This document shows, piece by piece, positions 8,439 through 62,097 of a stretch of 64,000 nt of DNA (its first letter is position 1; each line of letters opens with the position of its first letter). The notes under the pieces are model-generated. The model saw only the letters and a list, made by a program, of their open reading frames with translations, searched no databases and was not told where the DNA came from. The translations under genes were made by a program, and so were the position numbers. Source of the DNA: Candidatus Faecivicinus avistercoris (lineage in GTDB: Bacteria > Bacillota > Clostridia > Christensenellales > Aristaeellaceae); NCBI GenBank assembly GCA_018716805.1, contig DVJL01000027.1:1-64000 (forward strand). The letters are read 5' to 3'.

Positions 8439-9443
8439 ATGAACTTCAAGGGACGCAGTTTCCTCAAATTGCTGGACTTTACGCCCGCTGAGATCGGTGC
8501 GCTGATCGACCTGGCGGCCGAGCTGAAGGCGAAGAAGAAGGCCGGCGTTGCGCACGACGCGCTGCGCGGTAAGAACATCGCGCTGATCTTTGAAAAGACG
8601 TCCACCCGCACGCGGTGCAGCTTCGAGGTCGCCGCGTATGACCTCGGCATGGGCGTGACCTACCTCGATCCCGCCGGATCCCAGATCGGCAAGAAGGAGT
8701 CCATCGCCGACACGGCGCGCGTGCTCGGCCGCATCTACGACGGCATCGAGTACCGCGGCTTCGGACAGGAAATCGTCGAAACGCTGGCGAAGTACGCCGG
8801 CGTGCCGGTCTGGAACGGCCTGACGAACGAATTCCACCCCACACAGGTGCTGGCCGACCTGCTGACCCTGCGCGAGCGCTTCGGCCGGCTGAAGGGGCTG
8901 AAGCTGGTCTACATGGGCGACGCGCGCTACAACATGGGCAATTCGCTGATGGTCGGCTGCGCAAAGATGGGGCTGAGCTTCGTGGCGTGCGCGCCGGAGA
9001 AGTACCTTCCGGGCGCGGGGCTGGTCGCCGAATGCCGGAAGATCGCCCAGGAGACCGGCGCGTCGATCGAGCTTTCTTCCGCGCCGATGGAGGCCGTCCG
9101 GGGCGCGAACGCCGTCTATACCGACGTCTGGGTCTCCATGGGCGAGCCGGACGAGGTCTGGGAGGAGCGCATCCACGAGCTTTCGCCCTATCAGGTCGAT
9201 GCCGAAAAGATGGCCGCAGCCGCGCCGGACTGCGTGTTCATGCACTGCCTGCCGGCGTTTCACGACCTGAACACCGGCATCGGCCGCGAGATCGCCAACA
9301 AATTCGGCGTTCAGGAGATGGAGGTCACCGACGAAGTGTTTGAAGGCCCGCAGTCGATCGTGTTCGACGAGGCGGAGAACCGGATGCACACCATCAAGGC
9401 CGTGCTCGCCGCGACGCTCGCGGGTATGGAGCCGTCAAAATAG
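8439..9443 (+). CDS. argF: Ornithine carbamoyltransferase
   Basis: Transfers the carbamoyl group from carbamoyl phosphate to ornithine, giving citrulline. The 334-residue product carries the carbamoyl-phosphate motif [13 protein letters not shown] (about residues 51-63), the second phosphate-contact segment [11 protein letters not shown], and the ornithine-binding HCLPAFHD near residue 270, all diagnostic for OTC rather than aspartate carbamoyltransferase. Start ATG 8439 is preceded by CGGAGG. carA begins 17 bases after the stop and carB follows it with an overlap, so the enzyme is made together with its carbamoyl phosphate source, as expected for arginine synthesis. It could also run backwards in an arginine deiminase route, but no arcA or arcC is nearby. 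Confidence 0.96.
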
Positions 9444-55675: not shown

Positions 55676-58600
55676 TCAGAGCTGCCAGACTTCGTCGGCG
55701 TACTCCTGGATCGTGCGGTCGGAGGAGAACTTGCCCGCGCCGGCGATGTTGTGCAGGCACTTCTTGGCAAATTCAATCTCGTCTTGCGTGTCGCGAATGG
55801 CGCGCAGCTTGGCTTCGCGGTAGGATGGGAAGTCCTTGAGCAGGTAGTAGTGGTCGGGCTTGTGCCAGCTCGCGCCCTCGAGCAGCGAGGTGTACAACTC
55901 GGCCAGCGCGCCGTCTTCGTCGGCAAAGGTGCCGTCGTGGAGCGCGTCCACGGCGCGGCGCGTGCGTGGGTCGGACTCGTACAGCGCCTTCGGGTCGTAG
56001 CTGTCGCGAATGGACTCGATTTCGTCCACGGTCGCCCCGAAGATGAAGTTGTTCTCCTCGCCGGCCTGCTCGACGATTTCGATGTTCGCGCCGTCGTAGG
56101 TGCCCAGCGTGCACGCGCCGTTGAGCATCAGCTTCATGTTGCCGGTGCCGCTGGCCTCCGTGCCGGCGGGCGAGATCTGCTCGGACAGGTCGGCGGCGGG
56201 GATGATGTGCTCGGCGTAAGAACAGTTGTAGTTGTGCACGAACACCACGCGCATCCGGTCGCTGACCTCCGGATCATTGTTGACCATCGCGGCGATCTGG
56301 TTGATGAAGCGGATGATCGCCTTCGCCCGGTCGTAGCCCGGCGCGGACTTCGCGCCGAAGATGAACGCCGTGGGCGGGAAGTTGTCGATGGAACCTTCCT
56401 TCAGGCCGTAGTAGAGGTCGAGGATCGAGAACGCGTTGAGCAGCTGGCGCTTGTACTCGTGCAGCCGCTTGATCTGCACGTCGAACACGAAGTGCACCGG
56501 GATGTCGACGCCCTCGCGCTCGCGGATCAGCGCGGCCAGCTGGCGCTTCTTTTCGCGCTTGACGGCGATGAACCGGCTGGCGAGCGCATCGTCGATCTTT
56601 TCGTCGAGCGCGCGAAGCCTGAACAGGTCGGTCAGGTAGCCGGGGCCGATCACGTCGTCGAGCAGCGCGCACAGCTCGGGGTTACATAGGCCGAGCCAGC
56701 GGCGCTGGGTGATGCCGTTGGTCTTGTTGTTGAACCGCTCCGGAACCAGCGCGTACCACTCGCGGAAGACCTCGCGCTTGAGGATCTCGGTGTGGATTGC
56801 GGCGACGCCGTTGGTGTACGAGGAGCCGTAGACGGCGAGGTTCGCCATGTGCACGCGCCCGTCGCGGACGATGTCCAGCGCGGCCGTGTCCTCGACGCCC
56901 TTCTTGCGAAGCTCCGCCGCGAGCCGCGTCTGGATGCGCTTGACGATGCGGACGAGGGCGGGGGAGACGTCGTTGAGCAGCGACACGTCCCAGACCTCGA
57001 GCGCTTCGCGCATGACGGTGTGGTTCGTGTAGCGGAACGTGCGCTGCGCGATGCGGAACGCGCGGTTGAACGTCACGCCGTCGGCCATCAGCAGGCGGAT
57101 CAGCTCGGGGATCGCCATCGTCGGATGGGTGTCGTTGAGCTGGACGGCGTGCAGGTCGGCAAAGCGGTCGTAATCCGCACCAAAGCGCGCGTGGAACGAG
57201 CGCAGCATATCTTGCAGCGACGCCGAGCAGAGCACGTACTGCTGGCGCGCGCGCAGCAGCTTGCCGGCGCGCAGCGTGTCGTTCGGGTACAGCAGCTTGG
57301 TGATGTCCTCGGCGACGTTCTTCTCCTTCGACGCCTTCGCATAGTCCTGCCGGTTGAACAGGTCGAAGTCAAACTCGTGCGTGCTCTCGCACTGCCACAG
57401 GCGCAGTGTGCCGATGCTGCTGTTCTCGCCGTAGCCGATCACCGGCATGTCGTAGGGCACGGCGCGCACTTCGCAGTTCTTCATCGGCACGATGACGCTC
57501 AGTTCGTCGCGGCGGATGCTCCACGGGTCGCCGAACCGCGTCCAGTCGTCCGGCAGCTCCTTCTGACGGAAGTTCTCGAACTCCTGCTTGAACAGGCCGT
57601 AGCGATACCGCAGGCCGTAGCCGTCCAGCGGGACGTTGTGCGTGGCGGCGCTGTCGAGGAAGCACGCGGCCAGCCGCCCGAGGCCGCCGTTTCCGAGCGC
57701 CGCGTCCTCGATGTCCTCCAGCGCGGCGAGGTCGACGCCCCGCTGGGCGAGCAGCGCGCGGACGTCCTCGAGCATGCCCAGCGCGTAGAGGTTGTTGTAC
57801 ACGAGCCGGCCGACCAGGTATTCCGCGGAGAGGTACAGCGCATGGCGGCGGTCGAGGCGGTCGGCGGCGTCGTCCGCCCAGCGGGGCGCGACGCGCAGCA
57901 TGACCGCGTCGGACAGCGCCTCGTGCAGCTGCACGGCGGAGGCGTCCTCCAGCGCGACGTGATAGCGGGAGACGACCAGCTCGTCCGCGCGGGCGACCAG
58001 ATCCTTCGCGTCGAACGTCGGAAGCTGGCCGCGGTGGTGGCGGCGGTTGAGGATGCGGACGCGGCGCGCGACGGCGTCCAGGTTCTGCGGCAACATCCGC
58101 CAAAGCCAGTTGCCGCCGACCGTGCCGGGATAGTTCATGCGCGATTCCTCGCCGAGGCCGAGCAGGTCCTGCATCGGCACGATGGCCGTGCCGGCGACCG
58201 AGGCGAACGCCGCGTCGAGCAGCGCGGGCAGGACGTCGTCGCTGCCGGGCTTCATGCCGAGCTTTTCGCGCGCGAACGCCTTGACTGGCTCGCTGGCGTG
58301 CGCCCACCAGCCGAGGGTGGTGTTGTTGTCGTGCGTGCCGGTGTAGACGATGCAGTTTTCGGTGTGGTTCTGCGGAAGGTCGACGTTTGTGTCGTCGCTG
58401 TCGAAGGCGAATTGCAGCACCTTCATGCCCGGATAGCCGCAGAACTTGAGCAGGCGCTTGACGCGCGGGCTGACGACGCCCAAGTCCTCGGCGACGATCT
58501 TCAAATTCGGCAGCTCGCGCCGGATGCGGCGGAACAGCTTGCGGTCCGGCCCGAGCTCGTACTTGCCGTTGCGCGCGGTCGGCTCGCTGGCCGGGATGGC

Positions 58601-59491
58601 GTAGTAGTTCGCAAAGCCGATGAAATGGTCGATGCGCAGCAGGTCGAACAGCTCGCCCGCGGCGCGCAGGCGGCCGATCCACCAGGCGAAGTTCGTCGCC
58701 TCGTGGCGGTCCCAGCGGTAGAGCGGGTTGCCCCAGCGCTGGCCGTCGGCCTGAAAGTAGTCCGGCGGCACGCCGGCGATGCGGATCGGGCGGCAGTCCT
58801 CGTCCAGCTCGAACAGCTCCGGGTTGAGCCAGACGTCGGCGGAGTCCTCCGCGACGTAGATCGGCATGTCGCCCATCAGCTCGACGCCGTTCGCGCGCGC
58901 ATAGTCGTGCAGCGCGCTCCACTGGCGGAAGAACAGCACCTGCTCGAACAGGTAGTAGCCGACGCGGTCCTTCAGTTCTTCCGAATAGCGGGCGACGGCC
59001 TCGGGCTTGCGCAGGCGGATGTCCTCGTCCGGCCATTCCATCCACGAGACGAGGTCGAAGTGCTCCTTGATCGCGCGGAACAGCGCGTAATCGCGCGCCC
59101 ACGGATGCGAATCGGCGAAGGCGTCGATCTCATCGGCCATGCGCTCCCGCGCGTGCGCGTAGGCCGCGCCGAGCAGCTCGGCGTGCTGCGCCTTGACGGC
59201 CTCGAAGTCGATCTGGCCGGCGTTGGGCAGCGGATGATACGTCCCCTCGGGCAGGATGCCGTCGCGCTCAAGGAAGGGAATGTCGATCATCAGCGGGTTG
59301 CCCGCGTAGGTCGACGTGCTCTGGTACGGTGATTCGGCGTAGCCGGTCGGGCCGACGGGCAGCACCTGCCAGATGTTCATGCCCGCCGAGCGGACAAAGT
59401 CGATGAAATCGTAGGCCGCCTGTCCCAGCGTGCCGATCCCACCGGGGGAGGGCAGCGAGGTGATGTGCAGCAGTACGCCACTCTTTCTCAT
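55676..59491 (-). CDS. malQ-glgP: Fusion: 4-alpha-glucanotransferase (MalQ) - glycogen/maltodextrin phosphorylase (GlgP)
   Basis: A 1271-residue bifunctional alpha-glucan enzyme. The N-terminal half, to about residue 490, is MalQ (GH77): the opening GVLLHITSLPSPGGIGTLG, LPVGPTGYAESPYQ, nucleophile Asp in LLRIDHFIGF, acid Glu in VAEDLGV and GTHDNNTTLGWW. The C-terminal half, from about 500, is phosphorylase (GT35): YLSAEYLVGR, NGGLGRLAACFLDS, QLNDTHP, ERFNNKTNGITQRRW, QIKRLHEYKRQLLN and the PLP-lysine motif EASGTGNMKLMLNGACTLGTYDGANIEI in two parts. Both active sites look complete. The start ATG 59491 follows AGAGGAG. It would split imported or stored alpha-glucans to glucose-1-phosphate without losing short maltodextrins. 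Confidence 0.94.
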   Translation of the reverse strand: MRKSGVLLHITSLPSPGGIGTLGQAAYDFIDFVRSAGMNIWQVLPVGPTGYAESPYQSTSTYAGNPLMIDIPFLERDGILPEGTYHPLPNAGQIDFEAVKAQHAELLGAAYAHARERMADEIDAFADSHPWARDYALFRAIKEHFDLVSWMEWPDEDIRLRKPEAVARYSEELKDRVGYYLFEQVLFFRQWSALHDYARANGVELMGDMPIYVAEDSADVWLNPELFELDEDCRPIRIAGVPPDYFQADGQRWGNPLYRWDRHEATNFAWWIGRLRAAGELFDLLRIDHFIGFANYYAIPASEPTARNGKYELGPDRKLFRRIRRELPNLKIVAEDLGVVSPRVKRLLKFCGYPGMKVLQFAFDSDDTNVDLPQNHTENCIVYTGTHDNNTTLGWWAHASEPVKAFAREKLGMKPGSDDVLPALLDAAFASVAGTAIVPMQDLLGLGEESRMNYPGTVGGNWLWRMLPQNLDAVARRVRILNRRHHRGQLPTFDAKDLVARADELVVSRYHVALEDASAVQLHEALSDAVMLRVAPRWADDAADRLDRRHALYLSAEYLVGRLVYNNLYALGMLEDVRALLAQRGVDLAALEDIEDAALGNGGLGRLAACFLDSAATHNVPLDGYGLRYRYGLFKQEFENFRQKELPDDWTRFGDPWSIRRDELSVIVPMKNCEVRAVPYDMPVIGYGENSSIGTLRLWQCESTHEFDFDLFNRQDYAKASKEKNVAEDITKLLYPNDTLRAGKLLRARQQYVLCSASLQDMLRSFHARFGADYDRFADLHAVQLNDTHPTMAIPELIRLLMADGVTFNRAFRIAQRTFRYTNHTVMREALEVWDVSLLNDVSPALVRIVKRIQTRLAAELRKKGVEDTAALDIVRDGRVHMANLAVYGSSYTNGVAAIHTEILKREVFREWYALVPERFNNKTNGITQRRWLGLCNPELCALLDDVIGPGYLTDLFRLRALDEKIDDALASRFIAVKREKKRQLAALIREREGVDIPVHFVFDVQIKRLHEYKRQLLNAFSILDLYYGLKEGSIDNFPPTAFIFGAKSAPGYDRAKAIIRFINQIAAMVNNDPEVSDRMRVVFVHNYNCSYAEHIIPAADLSEQISPAGTEASGTGNMKLMLNGACTLGTYDGANIEIVEQAGEENNFIFGATVDEIESIRDSYDPKALYESDPRTRRAVDALHDGTFADEDGALAELYTSLLEGASWHKPDHYYLLKDFPSYREAKLRAIRDTQDEIEFAKKCLHNIAGAGKFSSDRTIQEYADEVWQL

Positions 59492-59657: not shown

Positions 59658-60317
59658 ATGAAGAAACTGCTTGCGCTGCTCATGGCCGCGCTGATGCTCA
59701 CGGGCGCGGCGCTCGCGGAAGAGGACGACTGGTATCTGGACACGGCGGAGGAGCTGGCGGCGTGCGTCGGCGAGCTCGTGGGGGACGAAGCCTACCTGAA
59801 TGCGATGGGTTACCCCGTGGAGCTTGTTGGAATGGCTCACGATTACGTATACGTAGATTTCACCGTCCTGCTGGCTGCATGGCGGATTGAGTGGTCGGAG
59901 ACCGACGACTTGTTGCAAGCGTTGTTTGCTGTCGAAACTGGTGAGCTGTCGGATGCAGGGAGAGATTATCTCGTCCAGAACACAGCGCGGTGGCCACTTC
60001 TGCGGACGAATAGCGAGGAGGGAACTGCAGAATGGTTCGCGACATCACAAATGCTGACGTACAGCCGGACATACATCATGCCTGAAGATTTCCAGACGTG
60101 TACCTATTTGCTGTTATTTAATGGTAAGATGAATGCCGAGATGATCGGTGTGGCCTTCAGCCAGACGGGCGAGGAGACGATTACTGCGACTGCCCTGCCG
60201 GTTTTGCCGACTGTGGGAGAATGGTTAAGACTACAACCGCTTGATTCATTCTTGTTCTCCTGCGAACAGGTGATGAGCGCGCCGGAAAACGTATGGCGAT
60301 CAGTATTGGGTGAATGA
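59658..60317 (+). CDS. Small secreted protein, tandem paralogue 1
   Basis: A 219-residue exported protein of unknown function. The signal peptide MKKLLALLMAALMLTGAALA is followed by EEDDWYLDTAEELAACVGELVGDEAY, identical to the paralogue at 60467. The middle (LNAMGYPVELVGMAHDYVYVDF) is unrelated to the paralogue, then WRIEWSETDDLLQAL, MLTYSRTYIMPEDFQTC and GVAFSQTGEETITATA return to similarity. No lipobox or anchor is visible. Codons after the first 50 are visibly AT-richer than those of the paralogue. It starts at ATG 59658 behind GGAGG and has its own strong promoter. Confidence 0.8.
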   Translation: MKKLLALLMAALMLTGAALAEEDDWYLDTAEELAACVGELVGDEAYLNAMGYPVELVGMAHDYVYVDFTVLLAAWRIEWSETDDLLQALFAVETGELSDAGRDYLVQNTARWPLLRTNSEEGTAEWFATSQMLTYSRTYIMPEDFQTCTYLLLFNGKMNAEMIGVAFSQTGEETITATALPVLPTVGEWLRLQPLDSFLFSCEQVMSAPENVWRSVLGE

Positions 60318-60466: not shown

Positions 60467-61111
60467 ATGAAGAAACTGCTTGCGCTGCTCATGGCCGCGC
60501 TGATGCTCACGGGCGCGGCGTTCGCGGAAGAGGACGACTGGTATCTGGACACGGCGGAGGAACTGGCGGCGTGCGTCGGCGAGCTCGTGGGGGACGAAGC
60601 CTACCAGCAGCTGATGTCGGGCTTGGAGTTTGAAGAACTGGACGCGCTCAAGGGCGTGGATTACACCGCGCCGGTTGCCGCGTGGCGGATCGAATGGTCG
60701 GCGGCTGGCGATTTGCTGCTTGCGTTGTATTCGACCGTCGAGGCGGGCGACCTGTCGGACGCGGGGCGGGATCGCTTTGCCCAGCTGGTAGCGCAGTCGC
60801 TGCTTCAGCAGGCGAACAGCGCCGAAGGCGCCAGCTGGCTCGCGGTCTCGACGATGCTGACGTACAGCCGGACGTACGTCATGCCTGAGGATTTCCAGAC
60901 GTGTTCCTATCTGCTGGAATTCGACGGCGCGCTGGTCGGCGTGGCCTTCAGCCAGACGGGCGACGAGACGATTACCGTGACCGCCCAGTTGGTTTCGCTG
61001 GGAGATCAGAGCGTGGAGGAGTGGTTGCAATCGCTGATGCCACTGCTGTTCTCCTGCGAACAGGTGATAGGCGCGCAGGAAAACACATTGTGGCCGGCGC
61101 AGGGTGAATGA
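60467..61111 (+). CDS. Small secreted protein, tandem paralogue 2
   Basis: A 214-residue exported protein, paralogue of the product at 59658. It shares the signal peptide (one residue different) and the next 26 residues, then differs (QQLMSGLEFEELDALKGVDYTAPVAAW), and again matches from WRIEWSAAGDLL onward, including MLTYSRTYVMPEDFQTCSYLL and GVAFSQTGDETITVTAQ. I chose ATG 60467 because it places GGAGG at the same distance as in paralogue 1; ATG 60464 is adjacent. The track's start at 60314 is false. Function unknown. Confidence 0.8.
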   Translation: MKKLLALLMAALMLTGAAFAEEDDWYLDTAEELAACVGELVGDEAYQQLMSGLEFEELDALKGVDYTAPVAAWRIEWSAAGDLLLALYSTVEAGDLSDAGRDRFAQLVAQSLLQQANSAEGASWLAVSTMLTYSRTYVMPEDFQTCSYLLEFDGALVGVAFSQTGDETITVTAQLVSLGDQSVEEWLQSLMPLLFSCEQVIGAQENTLWPAQGE

Positions 61112-61188
61112 CACAAAATTTATGTGTACCATTCAAAAACTTCACAGCTTCGACATGCATCTTTGCTGGTTTTGCCGAGAACATGCGG

Positions 61189-61194
61189 TATAAT
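61189..61194 (+). promoter_or_regulatory. -10 element of the putative small RNA
   Basis: Perfect TATAAT preceded by GCGG; the -35 is not clear. It would start transcription at about 61201, exactly at the base of the first hairpin. Confidence 0.5.
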
Positions 61195-61200
61195 AAACAT

Positions 61201-61279
61201 AGCGACGGAATCCCCTCTTCTCATTCCCCTATCCCATCCGTCGCTGCGGAACGGCTCTCGCGAGCGGTTCCGCTTTTTC
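61201..61279 (+). ncRNA. Putative small regulatory RNA with C-rich loop (about 79 bases)
   Basis: Two hairpins back to back. Hairpin 1: perfect 9-base stem AGCGACGGA / TCCGTCGCT enclosing a 27-base loop rich in C and U (ATCCCCTCTTC, ATTCCCCTATCCC). Hairpin 2: GCGGAACGGCTC / GAGCGGTTCCGC with one mismatch, a TCGC loop, followed by TTTTTC, a standard terminator. A TATAAT lies at the right distance upstream. The loop is complementary to Shine-Dalgarno sequences (GAGGGG, GGGG), as in several known Firmicute small RNAs. No gene of this shape is recognised by me. Confidence 0.6.
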
Positions 61280-61380: not shown

Positions 61381-62097
61381 CTATGCGATCTCGAGGGCGA
61401 TTTCCATCATCTGGGTGAACGTGTTCTGGCGATCCTCGGCGGGCAGGGCTTCGCCCGTGACGGCGCTGTCGGAGATGGTCAGCAGCGAGAGCGCGTTCTT
61501 CCCGGCGGCAGCCGCGTTCAGATAGAGCGCATAGGTCTCCATTTCGACGCAGAGCACACCGAGCTTCATCAGCTTGGCGGAGGACGCCTCGTAGCCGCCC
61601 TGCTCATAGAAACAGTCGCTGGAGAACACCGGCCCGGGCACGACGTTCATGCCGAGCGCCTTGCCAGCCGTAATGGCCTTGGCGAGCAGTTCATAGGAGC
61701 AGCAGGGCGCGAGCGTGCCCGAGAAGCCGAATGAATCGCCGTAGCGCGAGTTCGTGTAGGCGCTCATGGCGGCGACGACGTCGCGCAGCTGGAGCTTGCC
61801 GGTCATCGCGCCGGCGGAGCCGACGCGGATGATGTTTTCGACGCCATAGTAGTTGTACAGCTCGTAGGAATAGATGCCGATGGACGGCATGCCCATGCCC
61901 GACGCCATGACCGACACGCGCTTGCCCTTGTACATTCCGGTGTAGCCGTGCACGCCGCGGACGTTGTTGACCAGCACGGGATCTTCGAGGTAGTGTTCGG
62001 CGATGAACTTCGAGCGCAGCGGATCGCCGGGCATCAGCACGGTGCGGGCAAAATCGCCTTCCTTGGCGTTGATGTGCGGGGTTGGAATATTGCTCAT
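61381..62097 (-). CDS. deoD: Purine nucleoside phosphorylase, DeoD type
   Basis: Hexameric phosphorylase splitting purine nucleosides to base and (deoxy)ribose-1-phosphate; DeoB, encoded at 4980, uses the latter. The 238-residue product has the DeoD opening MSNIPTPHINAKEGDFARTVLMPGDPLR, phosphate-binding Arg in NNVRGVHGYTGMYKG, GSAGAM, the nucleoside-binding CVEMETYALYLNA and the catalytic Asp in LTISDSAVTGE. All are typical of the trimer-of-dimers family. It is transcribed alone from a strong promoter. Confidence 0.96.
   Translation of the reverse strand: MSNIPTPHINAKEGDFARTVLMPGDPLRSKFIAEHYLEDPVLVNNVRGVHGYTGMYKGKRVSVMASGMGMPSIGIYSYELYNYYGVENIIRVGSAGAMTGKLQLRDVVAAMSAYTNSRYGDSFGFSGTLAPCCSYELLAKAITAGKALGMNVVPGPVFSSDCFYEQGGYEASSAKLMKLGVLCVEMETYALYLNAAAAGKNALSLLTISDSAVTGEALPAEDRQNTFTQMMEIALEIA

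Follow-up and report, generated by a model that had tools for sequence, protein, structure and literature searches.

A probable free-standing small RNA gene with a strictly conserved C-rich loop in uncultured gut clostridia

Near the end of the window (the whole stretch of DNA that was analysed, 64,000 nucleotides of genome G000) lies what is very probably a free-standing, conserved and undescribed small RNA gene. On sequence comparison, we place the probability of this reading at about 0.93. With it, a family of uncultured gut clostridia gains an apparently undescribed small RNA family that comprises eleven members and has its own covariance model. The RNA family is new; its presumed mode of action is of a kind already known, that of small RNAs with C-rich loops. 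The strict conservation of its long C-rich loop provides, in turn, a clean test case for asking how such loops choose their targets in Firmicutes.

The anatomy begins with a -10 box, TATAAT, which can be read at 61189-61194. Its spacing (about 7 nt) would put the transcription start at about 61201 and therefore give an RNA of about 78 nt. The features are as follows.

61172-61194, plus strand: promoter region, a conserved upstream block (TTGCCGAGAACATGCGG) with TATAAT, from sequence and alignment; no consensus -35 box.
61201-61278, plus strand: putative small RNA of about 78 nt, as the promoter spacing and the terminator suggest.
61201-61245, plus strand: hairpin 1, a 9-bp stem (61201-61209 with 61237-61245), from the fold and from changes on both sides at four of nine pairs.
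61210-61236, plus strand: C/U-rich loop of 27 nt, the presumed pairing region, from conservation across relatives.
61246-61279, plus strand: intrinsic terminator, a hairpin (61246-61273) followed by TTTTTC, from sequence and fold.

The two arms of the first stem, AGCGACGGA and TCCGTCGCT, pair perfectly. The loop between them, AUCCCCUCUUCUCAUUCCCCUAUCCCA, is rich in C and U, holds two CCCC runs and contains no G at all. The second hairpin (GCGGAAC-g-GCTC-tcgc-GAGC-g-GTTCCGC) follows directly. Together, positions 61201-61280 fold with an energy of -34.5 kcal/mol, compared with -19.4 +/- 2.8 for 200 dinucleotide shuffles (z -5.4), none of which folds as well. The original prediction had described this anatomy correctly to the base: a TATAAT placed for a start at the first base of the stem, a perfect 9-base stem, a 27-base C/U loop with two CCCC runs, and a second hairpin that, with TTTTTC, serves as a terminator.

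The promoter is less conventional. A promoter scan returned no sigma-70 pair, and the -10 box hence stands without a good -35 box. In the place of the latter, alignment reveals a block, approximately GCCACA-N-AAATGCG-N-TATNAT, common to most of 11 genomes from three genera. This block is possibly the site of a regulator or the mark of an unusual promoter class. Read from sequence only, the segment thus carries its own promoter-like element, with a good -10 box and a non-canonical -35 region, together with an intrinsic terminator.

Conservation as an RNA was found at two distances. Within the genus, BLAST and the exact loop pattern together located one copy in each of G000, G001, G002 and G003, which is four of the five genomes examined, and no copy among the roughly 295 further genomes searched in the family. 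Three of these contigs belong to metagenome-assembled genomes of uncultured clostridia, one of them from roe-deer duodenum. Among the four genomes, a single one of 25 loop positions varies, and stem, promoter and terminator differ. Conservation is highest in the loop, which stays nearly invariant in all eleven genomes described below as its surroundings change from genome to genome.

Beyond the genus, a first covariance model, built for hairpin 1 only from the four congeners, matched G050, a member of a second genus (39.9 bits, E 2.2e-5 per genome, 396 genomes searched). An extended model matched six more genomes, from a third genus called g6 here (E about 1e-4 each, 308 genomes searched). This brings the total to 11 genomes with a single copy each, all from one family of uncultured clostridia and spread over three genera. 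In all seven new matches, a -10-like box precedes the stem by a few bases, and a G+C-rich hairpin follows the stem directly. Box and terminator lie outside the covariance model, and therefore provide an independent check on these matches. The terminator hairpins of the relatives differ in sequence and stand at the equivalent place. The covariance search originally proposed as a check has thus recovered the same anatomy in relatives.

Two further covariance matches, in G515 and G091, lacked this anatomy and were lost with the final model, and other weak BLAST matches in G000, such as one on contig C116, look like coding sequence. No match to the RNA was found among viral contigs, phages and plasmids, or in the rest of the order sample beyond the 11 genomes. 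Against Rfam 15, including the 6C family, the window and four relatives gave no score at or above any family's gathering threshold; permissive thresholds returned chance matches only, mostly to eukaryotic RNAs.

The stem itself can be asked whether it behaves as a paired element. In the 11-member alignment, which holds eight distinct sequences, 88.7% of the cells are paired, and four of the nine pairs have changed on both sides. The covariation score is 0.310, against 0.169 +/- 0.040 in shuffles, and none of 500 shuffles reaches it. As the stem is built of a GCGGCGG repeat, good pairing is also obtained when it is slid by +3; stem statistics alone are therefore modest. Compensatory changes are present, and with only eight distinct sequences they lend modest support. 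The main argument for a probable RNA is the joint presence of stem, loop and terminator, with the position of the box.

Sequence comparison shows the anatomy, its conservation as an RNA structure and its independence of the neighbouring genes; how the RNA is transcribed, that it base-pairs, what it targets and in which sense it regulates, we infer as follows. Transcription would run from the first base of hairpin 1, about 7 nt past the -10 box, to the second hairpin. Hairpin 1 would present its 27-nt C-rich loop as a single strand. The loop would most likely pair with G/A-rich ribosome-binding-site stretches of several mRNAs, and this pairing would keep ribosomes from loading and leave the mRNA open to decay, after the pattern of RsaA, sX13 or B11. 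By analogy, the RNA most likely acts by base pairing with ribosome-binding sites, a reading that we hold to be somewhat better than an even bet.

C-rich loops that repress through G-rich ribosome-binding sites are documented for RsaA (PMC3961350), sX13 (PMC3771888) and B11 (PMC12395582). Fold and alignment indicate an unpaired, conserved C-rich loop of this kind here. sX13 of Xanthomonas, which is independent of Hfq, is a small RNA with C-rich apical loops that represses mRNAs carrying G-rich motifs at ribosome-binding sites, and G-rich motifs are found at the start sites of its targets (PMC3771888). It differs in having three stems with C-rich loops, where the RNA described here has one 27-nt loop and a terminator; no sequence relation is claimed. 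RsaA of Staphylococcus aureus, like other S. aureus small RNAs with a UCCC motif, is a Firmicute RNA with an unpaired, conserved C-rich motif; it blocks the Shine-Dalgarno sequence of mgrA, which encodes the regulator MgrA (PMC3961350). The best predicted candidate here also encodes a MarR-family regulator. RsaA nevertheless belongs to a different family and makes a second, loop-loop contact, whereas the target here is only predicted.

The 6C RNA, or B11, of mycobacteria likewise has hairpins with C-rich loops, and B11 pairs with guanine tracks next to ribosome-binding sites (PMC12395582). B11 does this through the loop of its terminator hairpin; here, the terminator hairpin has TCGC as its loop, and hairpin 1 carries the C-rich one. 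Further, 6C is actinobacterial, and the window has no Rfam match. LhrC of Listeria has CU-rich loops. LhrC is, like the RNA proposed here, a small base-pairing RNA of a Gram-positive bacterium, and differs in being multicopy (PMC4132741), where a single copy per genome is found here.

If the loop pairs with mRNAs, targets might be found by complementarity. The sample searched comprised stretches of about 1.03 Mb of G000, 0.6 Mb of G009 and 0.18 Mb of G002. Near-perfect complements of the 5' half of the loop were found at the ribosome-binding sites of a MarR-family gene (G002), of a G002 gene that we take, by resemblance only, to be CbiK-like, and of yicC (G000). At the MarR-family gene of G002, AATAGGGGAAAGAAAAGAGAAGAGGGGAAATG is predicted to pair with both halves of the loop over the Shine-Dalgarno sequence, at -33.8 kcal/mol. 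Its ortholog in G003 (70% identity), which was not picked for complementarity, reaches -25.0, within the lowest 2.2% of 492 background sites; a G003 paralogue reaches only -4.0. G000 and G001 yielded no MarR ortholog. This regulator of G002 and G003 is suggested as the best single target lead, with modest support from the ortholog. The yicC leader gives -21.6 in G001, weaker than in G000, and is ordinary in G003. The top candidates mostly differ between genomes.

Statistics over many sites are less favorable. Across the ribosome-binding sites of the G000 sample, the energies of the real loop are no better than those of shuffled loops; in selected contigs of G002 they are slightly better. Leaving out the RNA gene, the 1.03 Mb of G000 holds 22 strong complementary sites. 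The counts for scrambles with the C runs preserved were 13, 25, 23, 8, 4 and 14, and an excess seen over mononucleotide scrambles was withdrawn, as 22 lies within this range. A cross-genus ranking of targets between G000 and G009 gave -47.5 for the best five pairs against -43.0 +/- 1.9 for scrambled columns; the best 20 pairs hardly beat the scrambled columns. A search of 300 genomes for whole-loop targets, allowing up to three mismatches, returned only the RNA gene itself. Half-loop patterns gave many matches, with GGGATAGGGGA apparently more frequent than the reversed pattern; this is not taken as evidence because purine-rich ribosome sites are common.

Thus, what was originally predicted to be an undescribed, independent small RNA holds up (about 78 nt, three genera, no Rfam family), while the added claim, that it acts in trans by blocking Shine-Dalgarno sequences, goes further than pairing energies that do not, overall, beat scrambles can establish. 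A base-pairing role is plausible, by analogy and from the one conserved candidate, the MarR-family gene with its modest ortholog support. Against it stands the near-invariance of about 25 nt, which exceeds what a short seed needs.

In the main rival to base pairing, the loop of the same small RNA would be a decoy that binds and titrates a protein, for example Rho, a cold-shock protein or a KH-type protein. Conservation extends over all 25 nt of the loop, in contrast to a variable stem; the loop is unstructured, C-rich and full of YC steps, and no set of mRNA targets stands out statistically. Rho primary sites prefer unstructured, C-rich RNA. Conversely, a loop of 27 nt would make a short Rho loading site, and each RNA offers one copy of it. 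We regard protein binding as unlikely, if well worth keeping in mind. Quite improbable is a broader proposal, that of a lineage-specific RNA whose long invariant loop imitates the anti-Shine-Dalgarno region or a protein site, which is driven by a dedicated non-canonical promoter block, and which is countered in at least one genome by a sponge, here meaning a regulated, loop-complementary RNA transcribed beside the gene for an HTH-type regulator.

The stretch that brings a sponge to mind lies on contig C51 of G000 (8594-8621; L002 1501-1528). Here, GATAGGGGAATTGGAGGAAGGGATTCCG complements the loop at 24 of 28 bases. A TATAAT immediately precedes this stretch, a divergent gene for what we take, by eye, to be a short HTH-type regulator lies alongside, and a terminator-like hairpin follows about 120 nt beyond the stretch. 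The predicted duplex with the loop has an energy of -34.4 kcal/mol, and the gain for the whole molecules is about -25. The C51 stretch could be a sponge RNA or the leader of a target. One might go further and hold that a small transcript of this sponge or antisense-like kind, rather than many mRNAs, is the main partner of the RNA, and complement, box and duplex energy would all fit. We judge this very unlikely: the stretch was seen in G000 only, the loop is as strictly conserved in genomes where no such partner was seen, and run-preserving scrambles reach similar energies by chance.

Independence from neighbouring genes bears on whether there is a separate small RNA at all. In the window, the upstream gene (60467-61111, same strand) encodes the second of two paralogous secreted proteins, and the downstream gene (61381-62097, convergent) belongs to the purine nucleoside phosphorylase family (PF01048). 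G000 and G001 share these surroundings, with a malQ-glgP fusion, the secreted protein on the same strand and the nucleoside phosphorylase. In G002 and G003, a NUDIX gene is convergent and nrdD or rsmI (the latter named by eye) is divergent. Several g6 genomes have a PatB-like aminotransferase (also named by eye) and a DUF1275 gene as neighbours, and G050 and G122 have yet others. This makes at least four unrelated neighbourhoods across the 11 genomes, and the RNA is therefore not tied to one gene, either as its 3' tail or as its leader.

The segment might still be a leader or attenuator of the downstream gene, or the 3' tail of the upstream mRNA, as the same-strand DUF1275 gene downstream in several g6 genomes and the same-strand upstream gene in G000 and G001 would allow. 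The neighbourhoods already contradict this and leave it scarcely credible: the downstream gene is convergent in G000, G001, G002 and G003, the upstream gene is divergent in G002, G003, G009 and G179, and the neighbour differs again in G050 and G122. The original prediction that no neighbour explains the segment is thus borne out, and the 3' tail that it had named as its possible undoing fails on the same divergent genes. It had also held that no reading frame explains the segment; open frames do cross it, and what stands is that none is conserved with a start codon. A small protein read as PSSHSP(I/T)P through the loop (with Q for H in G002 and G003) was rejected as the least likely reading of all, for although its frame 0 translation is conserved and several between-genus loop differences fall at third codon positions, no start codon is shared (G002, G003 and G050 lack one in this frame), three g6 genomes have stops in frame 24 nt upstream, there is no Shine-Dalgarno sequence, and the frame continues through the terminator to unrelated ends.

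Among the predicted pairings of the loop, purF, purL and purH, on one contig, stood out post hoc. The purF and purL leaders (L131, G000 contig C21, near 1412 and 7725) are among the best, and a search with the N-terminus of purF turned up nothing comparable in the rest of the genus. Taken with the purine nucleoside phosphorylase gene next to the RNA, these leaders hint, again post hoc, at a link to purine metabolism. On the other side of the RNA gene, 59658-60317 and 60467-61111 encode two small secreted proteins, paralogues in tandem that apparently arose by duplication, and a similar GAATGACACA...TGTGTaccATTC inverted repeat follows each of them. The second of these matched no Pfam family on a scan, and G001 has a homolog at the corresponding place. 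Further upstream, on the minus strand (55676-59491), a 4-alpha-glucanotransferase (PF02446) and a glycogen phosphorylase (PF00343) are fused in one frame of 1271 amino acids, a fusion that is present in G001 as well.
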